From Pseudovibrio japonicus (GTDB lineage: Bacteria > Pseudomonadota > Alphaproteobacteria > Rhizobiales > Stappiaceae), in NCBI RefSeq assembly GCF_014651595.1, contig NZ_BMXE01000001.1, forward strand, positions 496,001 through 560,000: 64,000 nucleotides of DNA. Direction: 5' to 3'. Numbering within the stretch: position 1 is the first letter of the stretch; every line of letters begins with the position of its first letter. The notes under the pieces are model-generated. The model ran no database searches and had not been told where the DNA came from. It saw nothing but the letters and a program-made list of their open reading frames with translations. This document shows positions 16,841 through 30,929 of this stretch, one piece after another. The position numbers and the translations under genes are program-made.

Positions 16841-17021
16841 GAGATCATTACCCTTCTTGCTTCAACTTAATGTTCAGACTCAAGCTTTATGTCGCGCAGC
16901 GGCTATCCTCACAAACAACTTAAGGTTTGCGGCGTAACCTTTGACACTAAAAGGTTTTTGGCAATTATAGGTATCTAGGAATTTATTCCTTCGACCTAAA
17001 ATTGCAGGAGGATTCTTCGTT
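16841..17021 (-). other. Gap between large terminase and portal genes
   Basis: This 181-bp A+T-rich stretch separates the first two head genes. It holds two weak inverted repeats (AGGAAT/ATTCCT and AAGGTT/AACCTT) but no open frame and no convincing terminator. An internal promoter cannot be excluded. Confidence 0.4.
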
Positions 17022-18353
17022 TTAAAGTTTGCGCAGGCGTGGTTTGCCCGCTGGCCGCCGGTTGAGTTCGGTGATGGCCCAGACCAGCGCATCGAGCCGG
17101 TCGGGTGATTTGCCACTACTCAAACCACCAGCTCCGAAGTCGGCCAGCTCGTCTTCCAGCTCCGGAAACACCCCGCAGTGATGGACGCGGCCCTGCTCGT
17201 AAAGTAGTGCAACGGGCTCTGCCCTACGTCGCTTGCTTCTTGTTGCGTGGACCGATTTTACTGGCACGCTGGCGTCCACACTTTCGATGACCTCACGCAC
17301 CATTTCGCCACCCTGATTGACTTCCGCCAGAAGGCAGTTGGCCTCCAATTCGTGATAGAGTTTGATGGCCTGCTCGGCCCATAACGCCGGGCGCAGGCCC
17401 TGTGCGGTTCGGTCTCTTAAGACAAACATTTCCGCTGTCTCATTGATCCCGACCGCAATGATGCCACACGCATCTGCGGACTTGCCGGATGTGGCGGGCG
17501 GATCGATAGCAACCACGATGCGCTTTAAGTCAGGCACCTGTCGCAGCCTGCCAGCCTCGAACCATTTGCGAGCAAACAGGGCATCCTCACGGTCTTCAAT
17601 CAGCTCGCCATCAAGCTCCTGACGGCCCAATCTGGTGCCGCCATATCGCTCAGCCATTTGCTCCAGAAAAGCCTCTGCCAGAAAGGCGGCATTGGCTTTG
17701 GTACCGGCCTTTGTCACGACGGTCCTTTTGTCCTGCAACAGCAGCTTCAGGAGCGGTGTGGACTTGGGTGTCGTGGTTACAAGTTGCTGCGGGCGGCTGC
17801 CGAGGCGCAGGCCAAACTGGAGCATATCAAAGGTCTCTATGGCGTTGCTCCACTTACCTGCTTCATCACACCAAGCGGCATCAAACTGTGGTCCGCGCAG
17901 TGCCTCCGGATCCTCAGAGGAGAACGCGCGCGCCACCGCTCCGTTGGGCCACTCCAGACGGCGACGTGATGGGTTCCACTGCGGTTTTTGTCCGGACGGA
18001 TGGACCGCGAGCAGGCCGGAAATGCCCTCAATCATCACCTCTCGCACATCGGCGTAGGTTTGCCCGACCAGTGCAATATTGCCCGCTGCGGGGCCTGCCC
18101 ACCCCTCCCCGTTCACCTTGCTGCGGACCCACTCTGCCCCTGCTCTGGTTTTGCCTGCACCGCGCCCGCCCATGAGCAGCCACGTGGCCCAGTTTCCGAC
18201 AGGCGCGCGCTGATGAGCGTGCGCAAACAGCTGCCAGTTATGTTGAATAAATCTCAACTCTTCTTTCGTCAGCGACGCGATGAAGTCATTCAGTTTGCCC
18301 TGCGCTACACAGGCTTGCAATGCGCTGCGAAAGCTGTTGTCGCATCTGGTCAT
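17022..18353 (-). CDS. GTA gp2-like large terminase (DNA packaging ATPase/nuclease)
   Basis: A 443-residue large terminase (RcGTA ORFg2, rcc01683). The ATPase Walker A motif GRGAGKT is at 63-69 and the arginine/Walker B region follows (DAAWCDEAGKW). The nuclease domain begins at IVVAIDPPATSGKSADACG near residue 258 with the first catalytic Asp. It pumps host DNA into the heads by headful packaging. The ATG at 18353 has GAGGTGAG just before it. The first 68 bp overlap the end of the small terminase gene in another frame, a normal arrangement here. A GTG one codon earlier is an alternative start. Confidence 0.92.
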   Translation of the reverse strand: MTRCDNSFRSALQACVAQGKLNDFIASLTKEELRFIQHNWQLFAHAHQRAPVGNWATWLLMGGRGAGKTRAGAEWVRSKVNGEGWAGPAAGNIALVGQTYADVREVMIEGISGLLAVHPSGQKPQWNPSRRRLEWPNGAVARAFSSEDPEALRGPQFDAAWCDEAGKWSNAIETFDMLQFGLRLGSRPQQLVTTTPKSTPLLKLLLQDKRTVVTKAGTKANAAFLAEAFLEQMAERYGGTRLGRQELDGELIEDREDALFARKWFEAGRLRQVPDLKRIVVAIDPPATSGKSADACGIIAVGINETAEMFVLRDRTAQGLRPALWAEQAIKLYHELEANCLLAEVNQGGEMVREVIESVDASVPVKSVHATRSKRRRAEPVALLYEQGRVHHCGVFPELEDELADFGAGGLSSGKSPDRLDALVWAITELNRRPAGKPRLRKL

Positions 18354-18798
18354 CACTCACCTCTTCTGAATTAGCCGCAGTGTGGGTGTCCTGCAGCTCG
18401 ATCAGCATATCCAGTGTCTTGGCGAGACTGGTGATGGCCTTGGCGGTCGCATCCATCTCCCCTGCTGCGGACTGCGGATCACCGCTCAGCTTTTTCAGTC
18501 TGGCCTCCAGCGCACTGATCTGTTTTTCAAAGGCGGCGTAAAGGCGGGCAATCATACGCTTGCGCTCTTCGGGCCGAGAGCTGGCGAGCTCCTGTGCCAG
18601 TTGCCATTTGCGCAGCCAGCCTTCACGATTGATCTTGGTGGAGATTGTACTTGCCGGCAGGCCCGTTCGGCGGGCAATCTCGGCAATGGAAAACGGCTCT
18701 TCTTCCACCATGCGGCGGACGACTTGCCAGACTTCGGTGGGCACACGCAGCCGTGTGGCCTGCTCATCTTCCTGCTCGGGGTCTTGCTGTTCTGACAT
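18286..18798 (-). CDS. GTA gp1-like small terminase
   Basis: First gene of the gene transfer agent operon, 170 residues from the ATG at 18798, which has an excellent AGGAGGGGAG ribosome site. The N-terminal region is acidic. A helix-turn-helix lies at about residues 36-57 (FSIAEIARRTGLPASTIS), followed by long charged helices typical of phage small terminases. It corresponds to RcGTA ORFg1 (rcc01682), which has been shown in that system to be a TerS with weak or non-specific DNA binding, consistent with random packaging. Its mRNA leader contains a terminator-like hairpin and a promoter. Confidence 0.8.
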   Translation of the reverse strand: MSEQQDPEQEDEQATRLRVPTEVWQVVRRMVEEEPFSIAEIARRTGLPASTISTKINREGWLRKWQLAQELASSRPEERKRMIARLYAAFEKQISALEARLKKLSGDPQSAAGEMDATAKAITSLAKTLDMLIELQDTHTAANSEEVSDDQMRQQLSQRIASLCSAGQTE

Positions 18799-18813
18799 CT
18801 CCCCTCCTGTCAC

Positions 18814-18918
18814 TCAGGCACAAAAAAAGCTGCCCGTTGAAACAAGGGACAGCTGGTCAGAGATCTTAAAATGTTGTGCGGTTAGAAAGTGAAAAGTTGC
18901 CTTTAGCGGCTCACTCAC
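18814..18918 (-). other. Possible 34-codon leader ORF over the GTA terminator
   Basis: A GTG-initiated frame on the minus strand runs from 18918 through the terminator hairpin and stops at TGA just before the small terminase ribosome site. A GAGAAAG stretch lies upstream of the GTG. Translation of such a leader could prevent hairpin formation. Nothing else supports its expression, so it is listed as a candidate only. Confidence 0.2.
18822..18854 (-). terminator. Intrinsic-terminator hairpin in the GTA operon leader
   Basis: On the minus strand AGCTG-t-CCC-TTG, a TTT loop, CAA-c-GGG-CAGCT forms an 11-bp stem with one bulged base on each side, followed directly by seven T. It is only about 24 nt upstream of the small terminase ATG and downstream of a promoter, so transcripts of the GTA operon must read through it. 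This is the layout of an attenuator. The nearest upstream gene on the strand ends about 345 bp away, making it less likely to be that gene's own terminator. Confidence 0.7.
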
Positions 18919-18938
18919 ACTTTCTCTAGCATGCCAAA

Positions 18939-18967
18939 ACACTAGCAAAGCAGCGCTGCGATGTCAA
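18939..18967 (-). promoter_or_regulatory. Sigma70-type promoter for the GTA operon
   Basis: On the minus strand a perfect -35 hexamer TTGACA (18962-18967) is separated by exactly 17 bp from TAGTGT (18939-18944), a fair -10. Transcription would begin near 18932, giving a leader of about 135 nt before the small terminase gene. No other good promoter is seen between this point and the ATG. In Rhodobacter the equivalent operon is activated by GafA; no binding site can be named here. Confidence 0.55.
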
Positions 18968-19198
18968 GATTATATTCCTAGCGCTTGGTACCCAAAGACG
19001 CATGGACACTTATCCCCGTTCCGCGCTAGGATTGCGTGTAATTCAATTTTGAATAAAGAAAGAAGTAAAGCTTTGATGGGACACTCAAAACGCGCAGAGC
19101 GATGTGGCCCTGCGCTGGTTGTGTTGCTTTTAAAGTTTTGAGTTATACCCGCTTCCCCCTTGTGGAGAAGTTCCTGAGATTAAACGTAATTTGCAGGA
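18968..19198. other. Non-coding stretch between ycgN-like gene and GTA promoter
   Basis: About 230 bp with no supported gene. It is A+T-richer than the surrounding genes. I see no clear terminator for the YcgN-like gene and no RNA gene. Confidence 0.5.
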
Positions 19199-19678
19199 TC
19201 AGTCCTTGGTATATTCTTCATCCGGCCAGTCGACGAGGTAGTTTTCGTAGTCCTCTGGCTCCATACCATCTTCACTGATGGTTTTGTCTTTTGCGGAGAT
19301 TCCGGCGTCATGAACGCTTTGCGGATCTTTTGAGACAAGAGGATGCCACCAGTACAGGTCCTTGCCTTCACGGATCAAACGATACGCGCATGTTGGCGGT
19401 AACCATTTCAAAGTTCTTACTGTTTCTGGCGAAAGCTGAACGCAATCGGGCACAGTTTCAAAGCGCCGTTCATAGTTTTTGCACCTACATGTGGTTCCAT
19501 CGAGCAGAGTGCACGCGACGCTTGTCCAGTAGATTGCGCCAGTGTCCCAATCTTCCAGCTTGTTCAGGCAGCAGCGTCCACAACCATCGCAGAGGGACTC
19601 CCATTCTTCGGGGGTCATCTCTTCAAGGGTTTTCGTCTGCCAAAAAGGGCGGTGACTCTCAGAGTTTACGGATACCAT
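19199..19678 (-). CDS. YcgN-family cysteine cluster protein (UPF0260)
   Basis: A 159-residue member of the YcgN/UPF0260 family. The family cysteine cluster is plain: CDGCGRCC at about residues 30-37, then the single Cys in VACTLL, the CRC motif near residue 65, CVQL near 79 and PTCAYRL near 96. Such clusters probably bind a metal ion; no activity is established. Near the end WHPLVS and a Glu/Asp-rich tail are also typical. It is divergent from the penicillin-binding protein gene, sharing about 120 bp of upstream DNA. Confidence 0.88.
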
Positions 19679-19802
19679 TTATGTCGTTCTCATTGCAAAA
19701 TCCGATGGGAATATCGCGAGTGGGTCGTTGCAAGTTTTTCGGTTTGGTTCATAGTTCCCCCCTGTGTCATCAGGGGTGTGACCGGTACTACGGGTAATCA
19801 GT

Positions 19803-22040
19803 TTGGAAGAGAACTCTGATAACAGCGAAAAGCAGAATGTCACGGAAAATTCTGCCGATACTGTGAAAAAAAAGGGTAAGGGGCGATCTTTTTCGCTCCA
19901 TGATCTATCTCAGCGCATGCTTGCAACCGATGCATGGCTGGATTCTGCGCTCTTTCACACGTCACAGTGGCTTGGCGCCTTCTTTCGCGAATACTCTGCC
20001 TTCATGCGCCGGTTTGCACCGCGCGGGGCTACCAAGTTCATTGCGGGACTGGCTTCCGAGGGGTTGACCTATTGCGCCTTCGGGTTCCTGATCCTGCTAG
20101 CCTTCGCGCAGCCTGCCTTTAAGGAGACGGAGCGCTCAGACTGGAAAACGACCTCCGACTTCTCTGTGAGCTTTTTTGACCGGTTCGGAAACCCGATCGG
20201 CAAACGTGGCATCTTGCTGAACGACAAAATTCCGCTGGACGAGATTCCTGACCACGTGATCCAGGCCACCCTTGCGACCGAAGACAGACGGTTCTTTCTT
20301 CACCTGGGAATTGACTTTGTTGGTACCTTTCGCGCGATGGTGGAGAACGTGAAAGCGCGCTCTGTTGTGCAGGGTGGCTCGTCAATTACACAGCAGCTCG
20401 CAAAAAACCTGTTCCTTTCAAACGAACGCACATTACAACGCAAAATCAAGGAAGCTTATCTCGCCCTGTGGCTTGAGATGAACCTTTCGAAGCGAGAAAT
20501 CCTCAAATTGTACCTTGATCGCGCCTACATGGGCGCGGGGACATTTGGCGTGGCGGCTGCCTCTGAATTTTACTTCGGCAAAGACGTTCGCGAAATTTCG
20601 CTTGCAGAAGCTGCAATGCTAGCAGGGCTTTACAAGGCACCTTCCAAGTACGCCCCGCACAAAAACCTGCCTGCCGCCCGTGCCCGTGCCAATGAAGTAC
20701 TGACGAATATCGTGCAGGCTGGCTTCATGACCGAAGGACAAGTTATTGGCGCGCGGCGTAATCCGGCAGACCCCATTGACCGGACAAAAAGCCAGGCGCC
20801 GGATCATTATCTCGACTGGGCCTACGAAAAGGTGAAGGAACTTGCCGCGCAATACCCGGAGCTTAGTACCGACAGGGTAATATCTGTTCGCACCACCCTT
20901 GATCCCGGGTTGCAGCGGGAAGCGGTTGAACAGGTTGAAAGCACGTTGCGCCAATACGGCAGCCGCTACGGTGTTGAAGAAGCGGCCATGACAGTTATCA
21001 CCATCGACGGCGCTGTTCGCGCCATGGTGGGTGGACGTGACTATGATGAAAGCCAGTTCAACCGTGCGACCGATGCGCTACGCCAACCAGGCTCATCCTT
21101 TAAGCCATTCGTTTACATGACCGCCTTCCTGAACGGCTATGAGACCGAGAGTGTTGTTCGTGATCGGCCCATCAACATTGGCGGCTGGAGCCCGCGCAAT
21201 TATACCCGTGGCTATGCTGGTCCGGTGACCCTAAAGACGGCGCTTACAAAGTCAATCAACACCATTCCCGTGCAGCTGGCGCAGGCAATCGGGCGTGATA
21301 AAATTGCGACCACTGCCTATATGATGGGCATCAACAGCGAACTGAAGATCACCCGTGCCATGCCTCTTGGGGTTGGTGAGGTGACGGTGCTTGATATGAC
21401 AAGCTCCTATGCCTCGTTTGCCTCCGGGGGGATAAAGGTTGATCCATACGCTGTTCTGGAGCTGCGCAATTCAAAAGGCGAATTGTTATATAGTCATGAC
21501 CGTGATGCGGGGCCAGCCCTGAGGATCCTGCCATTTGATAAGGTGGCAATGATGAACGATATTCTGGTCAATGTGGTGGAACGTGGCACGGGCCGCCGCG
21601 CCCAACTGGAGGGTATTACGGCAGCGGGCAAGACGGGCACAACACAGGCCTACCGGGATGCATGGTATGTGGGTTATACGGGCAATCTGGCCGCTGCGGT
21701 CTGGTTTGGCAACGATGACTTTACGTCCACGCGCCGCATGACCGGTGGTAGCCTGCCCGCAATGACCTGGGGCAACTTCATGAAGGTGGCACACCAAGGA
21801 TTGGAGCTGAAGGCTATGCCCGGTGTGGAGGCGCCTCCAGGCAAGGACGTTATTGCCGCCAACGGGCTTACGGATCACGAAGAGACAGGGCCGCCGGAGC
21901 AGCTCAACAAGACCTCACAGCAAGTTCTGGAAGCGCTTGGGAAACGGCTGCGTTCGCTTCCATTCAACAATTTTTCTCAGTCAAACGTACAGGCCCGTTT
22001 GGGTTCTGACGCTCAGGCGGATATGACTTATACCCGATGA
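19803..22040 (+). CDS. Class A penicillin-binding protein (PBP1-type)
   Basis: A bifunctional peptidoglycan synthase of 745 residues: cytoplasmic N-terminus, one membrane anchor at about 87-106, glycosyltransferase domain with EDRRF near 159 and GGSSITQQLAKN near 195, then the transpeptidase domain with active Ser431 in SSFK, the SxN motif (SIN) near 485, and KTGT at 610-613. It polymerises lipid II and cross-links stem peptides in the periplasm. The start is a TTG at 19803, because no ATG or GTG lies between the upstream in-frame stop and this point; a weak ribosome site leaves the exact start open. Its stop overlaps the next gene by 4 bp, so the three genes through 23325 probably form one operon. 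Confidence 0.9.
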   Translation: MEENSDNSEKQNVTENSADTVKKKGKGRSFSLHDLSQRMLATDAWLDSALFHTSQWLGAFFREYSAFMRRFAPRGATKFIAGLASEGLTYCAFGFLILLAFAQPAFKETERSDWKTTSDFSVSFFDRFGNPIGKRGILLNDKIPLDEIPDHVIQATLATEDRRFFLHLGIDFVGTFRAMVENVKARSVVQGGSSITQQLAKNLFLSNERTLQRKIKEAYLALWLEMNLSKREILKLYLDRAYMGAGTFGVAAASEFYFGKDVREISLAEAAMLAGLYKAPSKYAPHKNLPAARARANEVLTNIVQAGFMTEGQVIGARRNPADPIDRTKSQAPDHYLDWAYEKVKELAAQYPELSTDRVISVRTTLDPGLQREAVEQVESTLRQYGSRYGVEEAAMTVITIDGAVRAMVGGRDYDESQFNRATDALRQPGSSFKPFVYMTAFLNGYETESVVRDRPINIGGWSPRNYTRGYAGPVTLKTALTKSINTIPVQLAQAIGRDKIATTAYMMGINSELKITRAMPLGVGEVTVLDMTSSYASFASGGIKVDPYAVLELRNSKGELLYSHDRDAGPALRILPFDKVAMMNDILVNVVERGTGRRAQLEGITAAGKTGTTQAYRDAWYVGYTGNLAAAVWFGNDDFTSTRRMTGGSLPAMTWGNFMKVAHQGLELKAMPGVEAPPGKDVIAANGLTDHEETGPPEQLNKTSQQVLEALGKRLRSLPFNNFSQSNVQARLGSDAQADMTYTR

Positions 22041-28077: not shown

Positions 28078-28509
28078 ATGACCACTGCGATCGCCGATAT
28101 TCTAGAAGGATTTGAATTCCTCGAAGACTGGGAAGATCGCTATCGTTATGTGATCGAACTGGGTAGAGAACTCGAGCCACTGACCGATGATGAACGCAGT
28201 GAGGAAAACCGCGTGCATGGCTGTGTTTCTCAGGTTTGGCTTTCAAAGAGCATCCGGAAAGATTCTGATAAAGGACCGATCCTATATTATAAAGGTGACA
28301 GTGACGCTCATATTGTTCGCGGTCTTGTTGCCATCGTGCTTGCGCAGTACTCCGGCGTATCGGCTCAGGAGATCCTTGAGACCGATATTGAGGGTATATT
28401 CAACAAAATCGGCCTCAAAGAACATCTGACACCACAGCGCTCCAATGGTTTGAGCTCCATGGTTCAACGCATCAAAGATGATGCGTCTGCTGCGCTGGCT
28501 CTGAACTAG
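28078..28509 (+). CDS. sufE: SufE, sulfur acceptor for cysteine desulfurase
   Basis: A 143-residue SufE-family protein. The sulfur-accepting Cys49 lies in RVHGCVSQVWL, and the family start EGFEFLEDWEDRYRYVIELGR (11-31) and FNKIGLKEHLTPQRSNGL near the C-terminus are clear. It takes persulfide sulfur from SufS for iron-sulfur cluster assembly in the cytoplasm. The suf operon itself is not in this window. The last 38 bp overlap the 3' end of the convergent DUF6456 gene. Confidence 0.93.
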   Translation: MTTAIADILEGFEFLEDWEDRYRYVIELGRELEPLTDDERSEENRVHGCVSQVWLSKSIRKDSDKGPILYYKGDSDAHIVRGLVAIVLAQYSGVSAQEILETDIEGIFNKIGLKEHLTPQRSNGLSSMVQRIKDDASAALALN

Positions 28510-29218
28510 GAGCTGTCCAGCTGGCCATTTGCGCCACATCAGGGACGACTGCGCAGCTGCGTGAAGATCCATAATGAGCGGCAAGGCGGTCGAGCGCCAG
28601 ACCCAACACGATTTTTGCCGTCCGTTGTGGCCATTGGCGTTCCACCTCGATGTCCTTCAGGGATTTCAGAAAACAGCAGACATCCAAAAGGATCCCGGAG
28701 AGCTCGGGACCCACGGCGGAGAGCGCGTTTTGAAGACGCTGTCTGGCATCGTAAACGCTGTCGGACACGTCATCTATACTCTTACTCGACTTGGATGAGC
28801 GTTCGCTGCGCCAGTTTGATTTCACCGTACCCCAGAGCTGCGCGTAGGTGAAATCCTCTCGTAAACGCTCTCCAGCCTCGAATTGCTGAGCCGAGATATG
28901 GGTTTTGCCGGTTTTATCTTTGCGCTTCTTTAGCCAGGCAAGTGGACTTTCCGAACGATCTGTATGAACTGGTCGACCTTTTGACCGAGGCACGGCCTCA
29001 AGCCCCCCTTCACTCAGTCGCTTCTTCAGCCATACCCGTCCTTCTTTTGTTAACTGATATCCTTCAGTGCCAACATTCACAAACCCCAGAGAGACTGCGC
29101 GCGCAACTGTTGCCTCCGCTCCAACTGACTCACTTATCTTTTGGCGGGTGCCGGCGAGGTGCCTGCACAGTTTAATCAAAGGCTCATCGTGGGTGTTGAA
29201 CTCAGGCTGTGCACGCAT
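28472..29218 (-). CDS. DUF6456 domain protein
   Basis: A 248-residue cytoplasmic protein. The N-terminal part (about 1-70) resembles a winged-helix fold (ATVARAVSLGFVNVGTEGYQLTKEGRVWLKKRL). The C-terminal part (about 85-235) has the DUF6456 signature ESPLAWLKKRKDKTGKTHISAQQFEAGERLREDFTYAQL. Family members occur beside a DnaA-domain-IV protein in Hyphomicrobiales, as here, hinting at a shared DNA-binding or replication-linked role; that is inference. Its start overlaps the end of that gene by 17 bp. Confidence 0.85.
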   Translation of the reverse strand: MRAQPEFNTHDEPLIKLCRHLAGTRQKISESVGAEATVARAVSLGFVNVGTEGYQLTKEGRVWLKKRLSEGGLEAVPRSKGRPVHTDRSESPLAWLKKRKDKTGKTHISAQQFEAGERLREDFTYAQLWGTVKSNWRSERSSKSSKSIDDVSDSVYDARQRLQNALSAVGPELSGILLDVCCFLKSLKDIEVERQWPQRTAKIVLGLALDRLAAHYGSSRSCAVVPDVAQMASWTAPSSEPAQQTHHL

Positions 29219-29645
29219 CTAACAACCCTCCTGCTTCCAAAGGGTAATGCATGCGAGCGCTGGCGACCGACGCCGAGAGCTGCCCCTCAATTTCTGACAG
29301 GACTGCATCAAATCTGGGGTTCTCTCTGAGGTCCTCCACCACTTTACAGGCATGGGCAGCAGTGGTCCTGTCACGGCCAAAGACAGCAGCAGCTTGCGAG
29401 AGCGTTCTACCCATGGACACGTGAAGGATGTACATGGAGACCTGCCGTGCTTTTGCTGCTTTTGCATAGCCACGGGACGCCGAGTGCAGTTCTTCGGGTT
29501 TCAACCCAAATGCGAGTGCAACACGACCGGTCGCCATCCAATCGACTGCGGAAAGAGGCTTATTCAGCACTATGGAATGATGCGAAGATTCCGAGTGTAT
29601 ACCCCGGCACCTTTCGTCTTTCTCCCCCTCAGAAAATCTCGGCAT
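29202..29645 (-). CDS. DnaA domain IV-like helix-turn-helix protein
   Basis: A 147-residue protein with a DnaA C-terminal DNA-binding domain but no ATPase domain. The region from about residue 53 to 115 carries the DnaA signature: ARQVSMYILHVSMGRTLSQAAAVFGRDRTTAAHACKVVE, with the RDRTT(A)xHA recognition helix that in DnaA reads the 9-mer DnaA box. It may bind similar sites and compete with or report on DnaA. Start uncertain: no strong ribosome site at 29645, and a start closer to LSAVDWMA is possible. Upstream of the DUF6456 gene in one transcription unit. Confidence 0.82.
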   Translation of the reverse strand: MPRFSEGEKDERCRGIHSESSHHSIVLNKPLSAVDWMATGRVALAFGLKPEELHSASRGYAKAAKARQVSMYILHVSMGRTLSQAAAVFGRDRTTAAHACKVVEDLRENPRFDAVLSEIEGQLSASVASARMHYPLEAGGLLDACTA

Positions 29646-30102: not shown

Positions 30103-30519
30103 TTACTTAGCGCGTTTACGCTGCTGACCGAGACCCATTTTCTTAGCAAGCTCGGAACGAGCTGCTGCGTAATGAGGTGCAACCATTGGGTAATCTGCAG
30201 GCAGGCCCCATTTCTCACGATATTCTTCAGGAGTCATATCGTAGTGCGTGCGAAGGTGACGCTTCAGGGACTTAAACTTCTTACCGTCTTCGAGGCAGAC
30301 GATGTAGTCGTTCGTGACTGATTTCTTAACTGCAACAGCTGGACGCAGTGGCTCTGGCTCTGGCTCGGAACGGTCGCCGCCAGTTTTCTGCAGAGCCACA
30401 TAGACGTCGTTGATCAGCACAGGCAAATCAGCGGAAGCCACAGTGTTATTACCAACATAGGCCGACACGATATCAGCAGTCAGTTCCATCAAATTGTTGT
30501 CTGCAGGGATCTCGCTCAT
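30103..30519 (-). CDS. mucR: MucR/Ros family zinc-finger transcriptional regulator
   Basis: A 138-residue global regulator. Start at [22 protein letters not shown]; the frame runs 23 codons further upstream but the family begins here. The prokaryotic zinc finger spans about 75-92 with ligands Cys75, Asp78, His88 and His92 (C-x2-D-x9-H-x3-H), Asp taking the place of the second Cys of classical Ros. It continues [23 protein letters not shown], typical of MucR. These proteins bind A+T-rich promoter DNA and control exopolysaccharide, motility and virulence or symbiosis genes. It is monocistronic with a strong terminator. MucR proteins often regulate themselves. Confidence 0.93.
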
Positions 30520-30929
30520 CTCAAACCTGTCATCTTGTGGATCTAAATTTCGTAGGTGTACTTGTTTATTACAGGACCAATACTTCAATTCGAAAATTAA
30601 AGGTTCAATCCATACTTATCTCAGCCGAGTTTCGACTCTAAACAAGTAAAAACCATAGGGAGCTTTTATAGAGACATGAAATAAGGATAACAAGTTAAAT
30701 TCAACCCTTAAAGGCAGATTTACTATGGTTTTTTGTGCATTGTGATTTAGAAGGACCTTACAGACTTCCAACAAACTTGAGAAATCAAAGAAGTAAACTA
30801 GATAAACTGGTCGCCCTAGTGTACAGGCAAAAGAATGTGACTGTACTATGTGGCCAGCTTTTGGCAACGCGATCTGGATGGAAACTTAGTTTCCTAGTCA
30901 ATCACCTTCCCAACGGGCATTGTCGATTA
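30520..30929. other. Non-coding A+T-rich upstream region of mucR
   Basis: About 410 bp without a supported gene between divergent/back-to-back units: upstream of mucR and downstream of mrpG. Overlapping frames on both strands are of poor composition. A+T-rich tracts next to mucR are plausible autoregulatory sites. Confidence 0.5.

Follow-up and report, generated by a model that had tools for sequence, protein, structure and literature searches.

A conserved promoter-start module and a leader terminator ahead of the gene transfer agent genes of Pseudovibrio: the probable cis part of a GafZ antitermination switch

Because the cells that produce gene transfer agents (GTAs) die, how a small number of cells commit to production is a central question of GTA biology. 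Pseudovibrio, placed in the Stappiaceae and Hyphomicrobiales in the NCBI taxonomy, was already known to have a GTA cluster, according to passages of an earlier paper (PMC3806328). The five named loci found with terS all belong to Pseudovibrio. The window analyzed here is a stretch of 64,000 nucleotides from the genome of the marine bacterium P. japonicus, and its minus strand carries the GTA head cluster in the order terS, terL, portal, protease and capsid (Table 1). In this leader, a terminator-like hairpin sits between the GTA promoter and terS. Some 10 kb from the GTA leader, the window also encodes a DUF6456 protein of the GafZ family adjoining a GafY-like protein with a DnaA domain, as in the GafYZ-controlled GTA cluster. 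Caulobacter vibrioides matched DUF6456 in a profile search, and a Pfam scan of the candidate protein from the window gave no Q or AlpA family. A ROS/MUCR regulator gene (30103-30588) lies directly upstream of the gafY-like gene on the same strand.

Table 1. Features of the GTA leader and its surroundings, in window coordinates
Feature	Position	Strand	Basis or remark
-35 element TTGACA	18962..18967	-	sequence
17-nt spacer with GafZ-box-like TCGCAGCGCTG	18945..18961	-	order consensus gCGTnACGCTG
-10 element TAGTGT	18939..18944	-	order consensus TAGGGT
putative transcription start A+1	18932	-	A in 58/58 promoters
-10-like element CATGCT at -1 to +5	18928..18933	-	T+5 in 54/58
pause-like motif, G+7 and TGTG at +14 to +17	18916..18926	-	conserved columns
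A/T-rich block 5' of the -35 element	18968..18980	-	conserved columns -52 to -38; possible UP element or IHF site
conserved box GGGGATAAGTGTCC, around -84	19004..19017	-	candidate GafY activator site
leader terminator hairpin AGCTGTCCCTTGTTTCAACGGGCAGCT	18828..18854	-	alignment, pairing, folding
seven-T run after the leader hairpin	18822..18828	-	first T paired
terS, small terminase	18286..18798	-	ATG at 18798
terL, large terminase	17022..18356	-	
YkgJ-like gene, upstream neighbour of the GTA leader	19678-19199	-	
hairpin after the YkgJ-like gene	19092..19115	-	generic scan; weak T-tail in the window
gafZ-like gene (DUF6456), candidate antiterminator	28472..29218	-	domain match
gafY-like gene	29202..29645	-	Bac_DnaA_C domain; named from domain and neighbourhood

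The first-pass annotation of this DNA had described a TTGACA/TAGTGT promoter with a 17-nt spacer, an 11-bp hairpin followed by seven T, and a terS start about 24 nt further on. Promoter and hairpin are both there, the hairpin with one mismatch (8 pairs, a C.C mismatch and 3 pairs around a TTT loop), and 23 nt separate the T-run from the terS ATG. As that annotation had also pointed out, transcripts from the GTA promoter must read through the hairpin. Folding of the 41-nt hairpin region gives -13.5 kcal/mol, with a z of -3.2 relative to dinucleotide shuffles. Neither this promoter nor this hairpin appears in a generic consensus scan of positions 17000-21000, which gave one promoter-like site, where 1.4 were expected from shuffles, and six terminator-like sites, where 5.4 were expected. 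The case for both elements rests, therefore, on comparison between genomes. When the whole leader is folded, the minimum-energy structure pairs the terminator's 5' arm with the Shine-Dalgarno region of terS (18799-18854; z -1.4), a predicted pairing that could possibly act as a second block, on terS translation after read-through.

For this comparison, 81 genomes (this one and others of its genus, family and order) were searched for TerL. Seventy matched, and the stretch before TerL was used in 69, leaving out one genome in which TerL is in two pieces (G030). Split TerL matches were seen in G030 (contig C51) and G036 (C6), which would fit either a decaying GTA cluster or a faulty assembly. Starting from 28 seed promoters selected by their -35, spacer and -10 only, a 60-nt weight matrix recovered 58 of the 69 loci; the lowest member scored 13.0 and the best of 69 reverse-strand controls -7.6. 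The 69-nt module joins TTGACA, a GCGTnACGCTG-like box, TAGGGT, a -10-like CAnnnT at -1 to +5 and a pause-like G...TGYG with G at +7 and the four last bases at +14 to +17. Its consensus reads TTGACA - gCGTnaCGcTGnTnnGg - TAGGGT - TTtGg - CATGnTCgnAnAnTTGYGg, one spacer base of G052 having been omitted from the column counts to keep register. TTGACA is exact at 50 of the 58 loci, a set selected in part by -35, spacer and -10, and TAGGGT at 24. The box in the spacer is conserved, its position matches that of the GafZ element of Caulobacter, and by sequence it is a candidate GafZ site.

The start region is conserved too. The -10-like element [CT]AnnnT has A+1 in all 58 promoters and T+5 in 54, and in the 28 seeds, which were chosen without the start bases, both are invariant (28/28 each); the conservation of C-1 and A+1 may in part reflect just the initiator. 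G...TGYG at +7 and +14 to +17 is what we take to be the consensus of elemental pauses. The 58 promoters match it at a mean of 4.24 of five positions (27 of them perfectly), as compared with a maximum of 2.48 at other offsets from -10 to +29; for the 28 seeds the mean is 4.36, and the highest value elsewhere, 3.14, falls at offset -19 inside the conserved core of the promoter. Since the motif reads TGTG in Pseudovibrio and TGCG in most others, the pause consensus is kept while its letters change. The genomes of the module set are related and hence not independent, which we count against an antitermination mechanism, as we do the partial selection of the set.

A sequence-only model (R1) built from 38 of the 58 promoters was run over whole genomes. 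In the window it gives a single strong match of 56.9 bits, with the runner-up at 11.0, and conservation supports TTGACA/TAGTGT as the putative GTA promoter. The model matches 66 of the 81 genomes, 60 of them once only. These 66 are found among the 68 genomes with both TerL and DUF6456 (G030 and G070 are missed), and none of the 13 genomes lacking TerL, DUF6456 or both has a match. The module is tied in this way to the GafZ and GTA genes. Eight of the 66 had been missed by the weight matrix; in three of these (G037, G039 and G041) some 5 kb separate the module from the downstream TerL, and in two (G031 and G059) it is on another contig than TerL, and both situations count against antitermination. 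One module per genome is expected if GafZ has a single target, as is reported for Caulobacter (PMC11150451). Second or third matches occur in six genomes: G063 (L132 and L133), G034 (L135), G067 (L136 and L137), G056 (L138), G059 and G079. In G063 and G034 the extra matches are no more than about 14 kb away from the first, and a terminator is present at L132 and L135 as well.

How, then, could the cluster be transcribed past the hairpin? Three known systems offer a comparison. The late promoters of phage Q systems, for example 21Q (PMC6606751), have a Q binding element (QBE) and a -10-like pause element, with a terminator, tR', before the late genes. The cis layout resembles the one described here, whereas the protein belongs to another family, the present system is a domesticated GTA and its protein gene lies 10 kb away. 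The alpB promoter of Pseudomonas aeruginosa has an AlpA-binding element between -35 and -10, the place of the candidate GafZ box here, and is alike in its -10-like element (CACGAT) exactly at -1 to +5, where changes of A+1 or T+5 harm antitermination, and in its downstream intrinsic terminator; it differs in that AlpA controls lysis genes and not a GTA (PMC9371919, in part). AlpA is unrelated to GafZ in sequence and predicted structure, according to the discussion of PMC11150451.

A third parallel is CcGTA of Caulobacter crescentus, another GTA cluster with a GafZ-family protein, for which read-through of a terminator is published. In the parts of PMC11150451 considered here, GafZ antiterminates the GTA cluster at a terminator after the first gene, has a single reported target and has its element in the -35/-10 spacer. 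The boxes between -35 and -10 share GCGC..CCGCTG, with a core of GCG..CGCTG by eye, and are not identical. There are also differences in those parts: the Caulobacter -35 is degenerate (AATCAT) and ours is consensus; its terminator consists of three 150-bp repeats after gtaT, whereas here an intrinsic terminator precedes the first gene; and a leader hairpin, a -10-like element or a pause element is unreported in the passages covered. The same source states that a reporter lacking that terminator also drops about fourfold when GafZ is removed, passage through the long leader being the only explanation that its authors suggest. In the open-licence PubMed Central literature we found no GTA leader terminator, no -10-like or pause element and no order-wide module, nor any paper that uses 'intrinsic terminator', 'leader' and 'gene transfer agent' together; in the main text consulted, neither of two Rhodobacter papers (PMC9638019 and PMC6363796) has the word terminator or termination. 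The first-pass statement that attenuation of a GTA operon is undescribed holds for the leader terminator, which we did not find in print, but not for antitermination of the cluster by GafZ, which has been published (PMC11150451, in part).

Both the -10-like element and the intrinsic terminator before the first gene, as in the Q and AlpA layouts, are found in the window. Because of this cis layout of the AlpA/Q type, we take the hairpin for a leader terminator that GafZ would bypass, and the leader is likely to provide the cis component of a switch that works by processive antitermination. That the promoter and the first 17 nt or so are the conserved part fits processive antitermination by a loaded protein. 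From this anatomy we infer where transcription starts, and that polymerase pauses, is loaded with GafZ, and either terminates or reads through. RNA polymerase would start at TTGACA/TAGTGT and pause some 16 nt later, where the -10-like and pause motifs lie; there GafZ, sitting on the box between -35 and -10, would be loaded onto it. In cells lacking GafZ, most complexes would come to an end about 110 nt from the start, at the leader hairpin, whereas GafZ would take them past it into terS and the whole cluster. A leader terminator would be a natural first target of GafZ in the order.

The main switch might instead be activation, by GafY and IHF at the box around -84 as in Caulobacter, with the terminator trimming leak and GafZ read-through being secondary. 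The Caulobacter promoter PgtaT needs GafY and IHF (PMC11150451, in the passages covered), TAGTGT matches TATAAT at just three of six positions, and the -84 box is conserved in most Pseudovibrio, which suggests an activator at the GTA promoter; the box is a possible GafY site. Allowing one mismatch at most, it has 14 matches in its own genome versus 4 for the reversed pattern, and with two mismatches it occurs on the same strand at 16 of the 58 loci, with none on the opposite strand and none for a reversed control. In other genera, however, the box is not at that position. Moreover, the -35 is exact at the great majority of loci, as counted above, and in Caulobacter a near-consensus -35 freed the promoter from GafYZ, at about sixfold lower activity (PMC11150451, in part). 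We regard activation as the main switch as unlikely. As to its distribution, the box GGGGAYAAGTNTCC is present in 12 Pseudovibrio loci, at -84 except for one at -172; in four other genomes it lies 3' of +1, at +72 to +181, in the leaders of G028, G036, G046 and G048, and at L179 it is inside the terminator hairpin.

Terminators stand behind the module in other genera as well. Under a strict rule (hairpin of at most -8 kcal/mol and at least six T in nine), a sense terminator was found within 350 nt of +1 at 41 of the 66 loci, in 17 of 31 genera, and within 150 nt at 34 of 66. The antisense control gave 4/66 and 2/66 for the two distances, and the sense strand upstream of the promoter 11/66 and 8/66. 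In the 58-locus set the terminator is present at 36 loci, as against 4 in antisense. Since 25 of the 66 loci have none by the strict rule, which we count against antitermination, the leader terminator is common but not universal; some hairpins whose fold is branched or whose T-tail is short escape the scan (for example in G041 and G420), and these were left uncounted. In several genera the hairpin begins at +13 to +28, directly 3' of the pause motif or overlapping it. The hairpins look unrelated in sequence between genera, leader length varies widely and the leader body between +18 and the hairpin is not conserved.

These counts also bear on the idea that the hairpin belongs to the upstream gene, or insulates the cluster against read-through from upstream. 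The YkgJ-like gene is indeed on the same strand. Yet it has its own terminator-like hairpin, followed by TTTTTT in six relatives (G010, G006, G004, G002, G015 and G007), and hairpins are more frequent after the promoter than before it (41/66 vs 11/66), so that we see little probability in this explanation.

Within Pseudovibrio the hairpin itself can be followed. The first-pass annotation had proposed to look for it in close relatives by alignment and covariance. By the strict scan, 14 of the 16 genomes have a sense terminator no further than 350 nt from +1, one of the positives (G001) being doubtful because of a partial promoter match and a hairpin at +248 that is not alignable. The hairpin of G012 lies at about +318, slightly outside the limit, and G014 has no leader terminator by the strict scan, which counts against antitermination. 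In the ten closest leaders the promoter, the first 20 transcribed bases, the hairpin and its T-run are conserved and the stretch between them drifts; four of the 14 aligned genomes (G008, G012, G011 and G013) are more diverged and retain the hairpin. Pairing is kept in 89.6% of cells, as compared with 27.7-60.4% when the pairing is slid (14 of the 16 genomes, G001 and G014 left out). Covariance did not bear the hairpin out: compensatory changes affect two pairs, which is not above shuffles (146 of 500 reach it) and counts against antitermination, and RNAalifold on alignment A2 picked another, weak helix. A palindromic repeat of about 45 nt, around TATCGCCGAAA...TTTTCGGA..GATACGC, is inserted between hairpin and terS at L033, L034, L036, L037 and L038, with two copies in G006, so the 23-nt gap is not general.

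The same leaders speak to the mechanism that the first-pass annotation had favoured, an RNA-based attenuator in which either an alternative fold formed by an 8-bp repeat or translation of a 34-codon GTG frame decides whether the terminator forms. Repeat (+8 to +15 and +42 to +49) and frame (from +15) do exist in this genome, and the whole-leader fold has the repeat paired. However, the repeat is complete in this genome only, with 5-7 of the 8 positions in the 14 other Pseudovibrio leaders tested, and, lying clear of the terminator, it is no competitor of that hairpin. Seven of 15 Pseudovibrio leaders have a GTG frame of 20-60 codons at +15, and in 2 of 15 the frame is 34 codons long. No Rfam family matched the leader above threshold; a single sub-threshold match lay elsewhere (15.9 bits, gathering score 45). 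Where hairpins start at +13 to +28, as in other genera, there is no room for a repeat or a leader-frame device. Taken as a specific candidate, a leader-peptide attenuator was rejected because no conserved leader frame covers the terminator, and so was a riboswitch or competing hairpin, for which no conserved competing structure was found, the repeat and the leader body not being conserved and Rfam having no match above threshold. Attenuation by alternative fold or leader peptide was not supported by this comparison, and we leave it a very small chance.

Promoter, some 110 nt of RNA and a terminator are also the anatomy of a small RNA gene acting in trans, but the stretch from +18 to the hairpin shows no conservation, leaders differ greatly in length and hairpins in sequence, and Rfam gave no match above threshold, which makes this reading highly improbable. 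Equally improbable is a chance hairpin without function, although the generic scan shows no terminator excess in 17000-21000 and 150 of 1160 dinucleotide-shuffled leaders of the 58-locus set carry a terminator, for the hairpin is conserved in Pseudovibrio and sense terminators stand at 41/66 versus 4/66 in antisense; what lifts the leader hairpin above chance is conservation and not the generic scan.

Antitermination at the leader hairpin remains the reading that we prefer, and the module it would depend on extends beyond the order. In a sample of the class, R1 matched 14 of 289 genomes, its own included. In six of the others (G092, G225, G324, G150, G269 and G363) a TerL match next to the module marks a GTA locus, three of the six being in one family (f46); a strict terminator is present in G269, G092, G225 and G324 and in neither G150 nor G363. 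The remaining seven matches are near threshold, four of them in genomes without a DUF6456 match. In family f46 as a whole, R1 matched 69 of 119 genomes. Twenty of these loci were read, and TerL lies downstream in 13, six of which have a leader terminator, as compared with none of the seven loci without TerL and 1/20 in the antisense control. Two patterns of the module were also found in eight distinct viral contigs, with TerL following in seven and a leader terminator in five (sense-strand count); the Caulobacter spacer box, used as a pattern, had no match in viral contigs. The BaGTA of Bartonella is said, in the title of a 2025 report by Korotaev et al., to be a chimeric GTA of diverse phage origin with transcriptional antitermination; by that title alone it is alike in being a GTA with antitermination and unlike in its chimeric, diverse phage origin.

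A broader scheme can be put forward tentatively, at somewhat less than an even chance. The GTA promoter would fire without activator in ordinary cells and yield an abortive leader RNA, and GafZ, an antiterminator that resembles Q but is unrelated to it in fold, would be loaded at a pause near +16 and would decide at the leader terminator which cells become producers. The scheme would hold for the order and for some members of at least one further family of the class. If this is true, domesticated particles have kept a phage late-gene switch, and the fourfold effect of GafZ on the Caulobacter leader, so far unexplained, would likewise follow from a leader terminator. Found in 66 genomes of the order and often followed by a terminator, the module would turn GafZ antitermination into a testable general scheme beyond Caulobacter, one that names the exact bases to mutate and predicts that non-producing cells contain a leader RNA of about 110 nt. 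With one match per genome as a rule, the module also provides a sequence signature for finding GTA loci.
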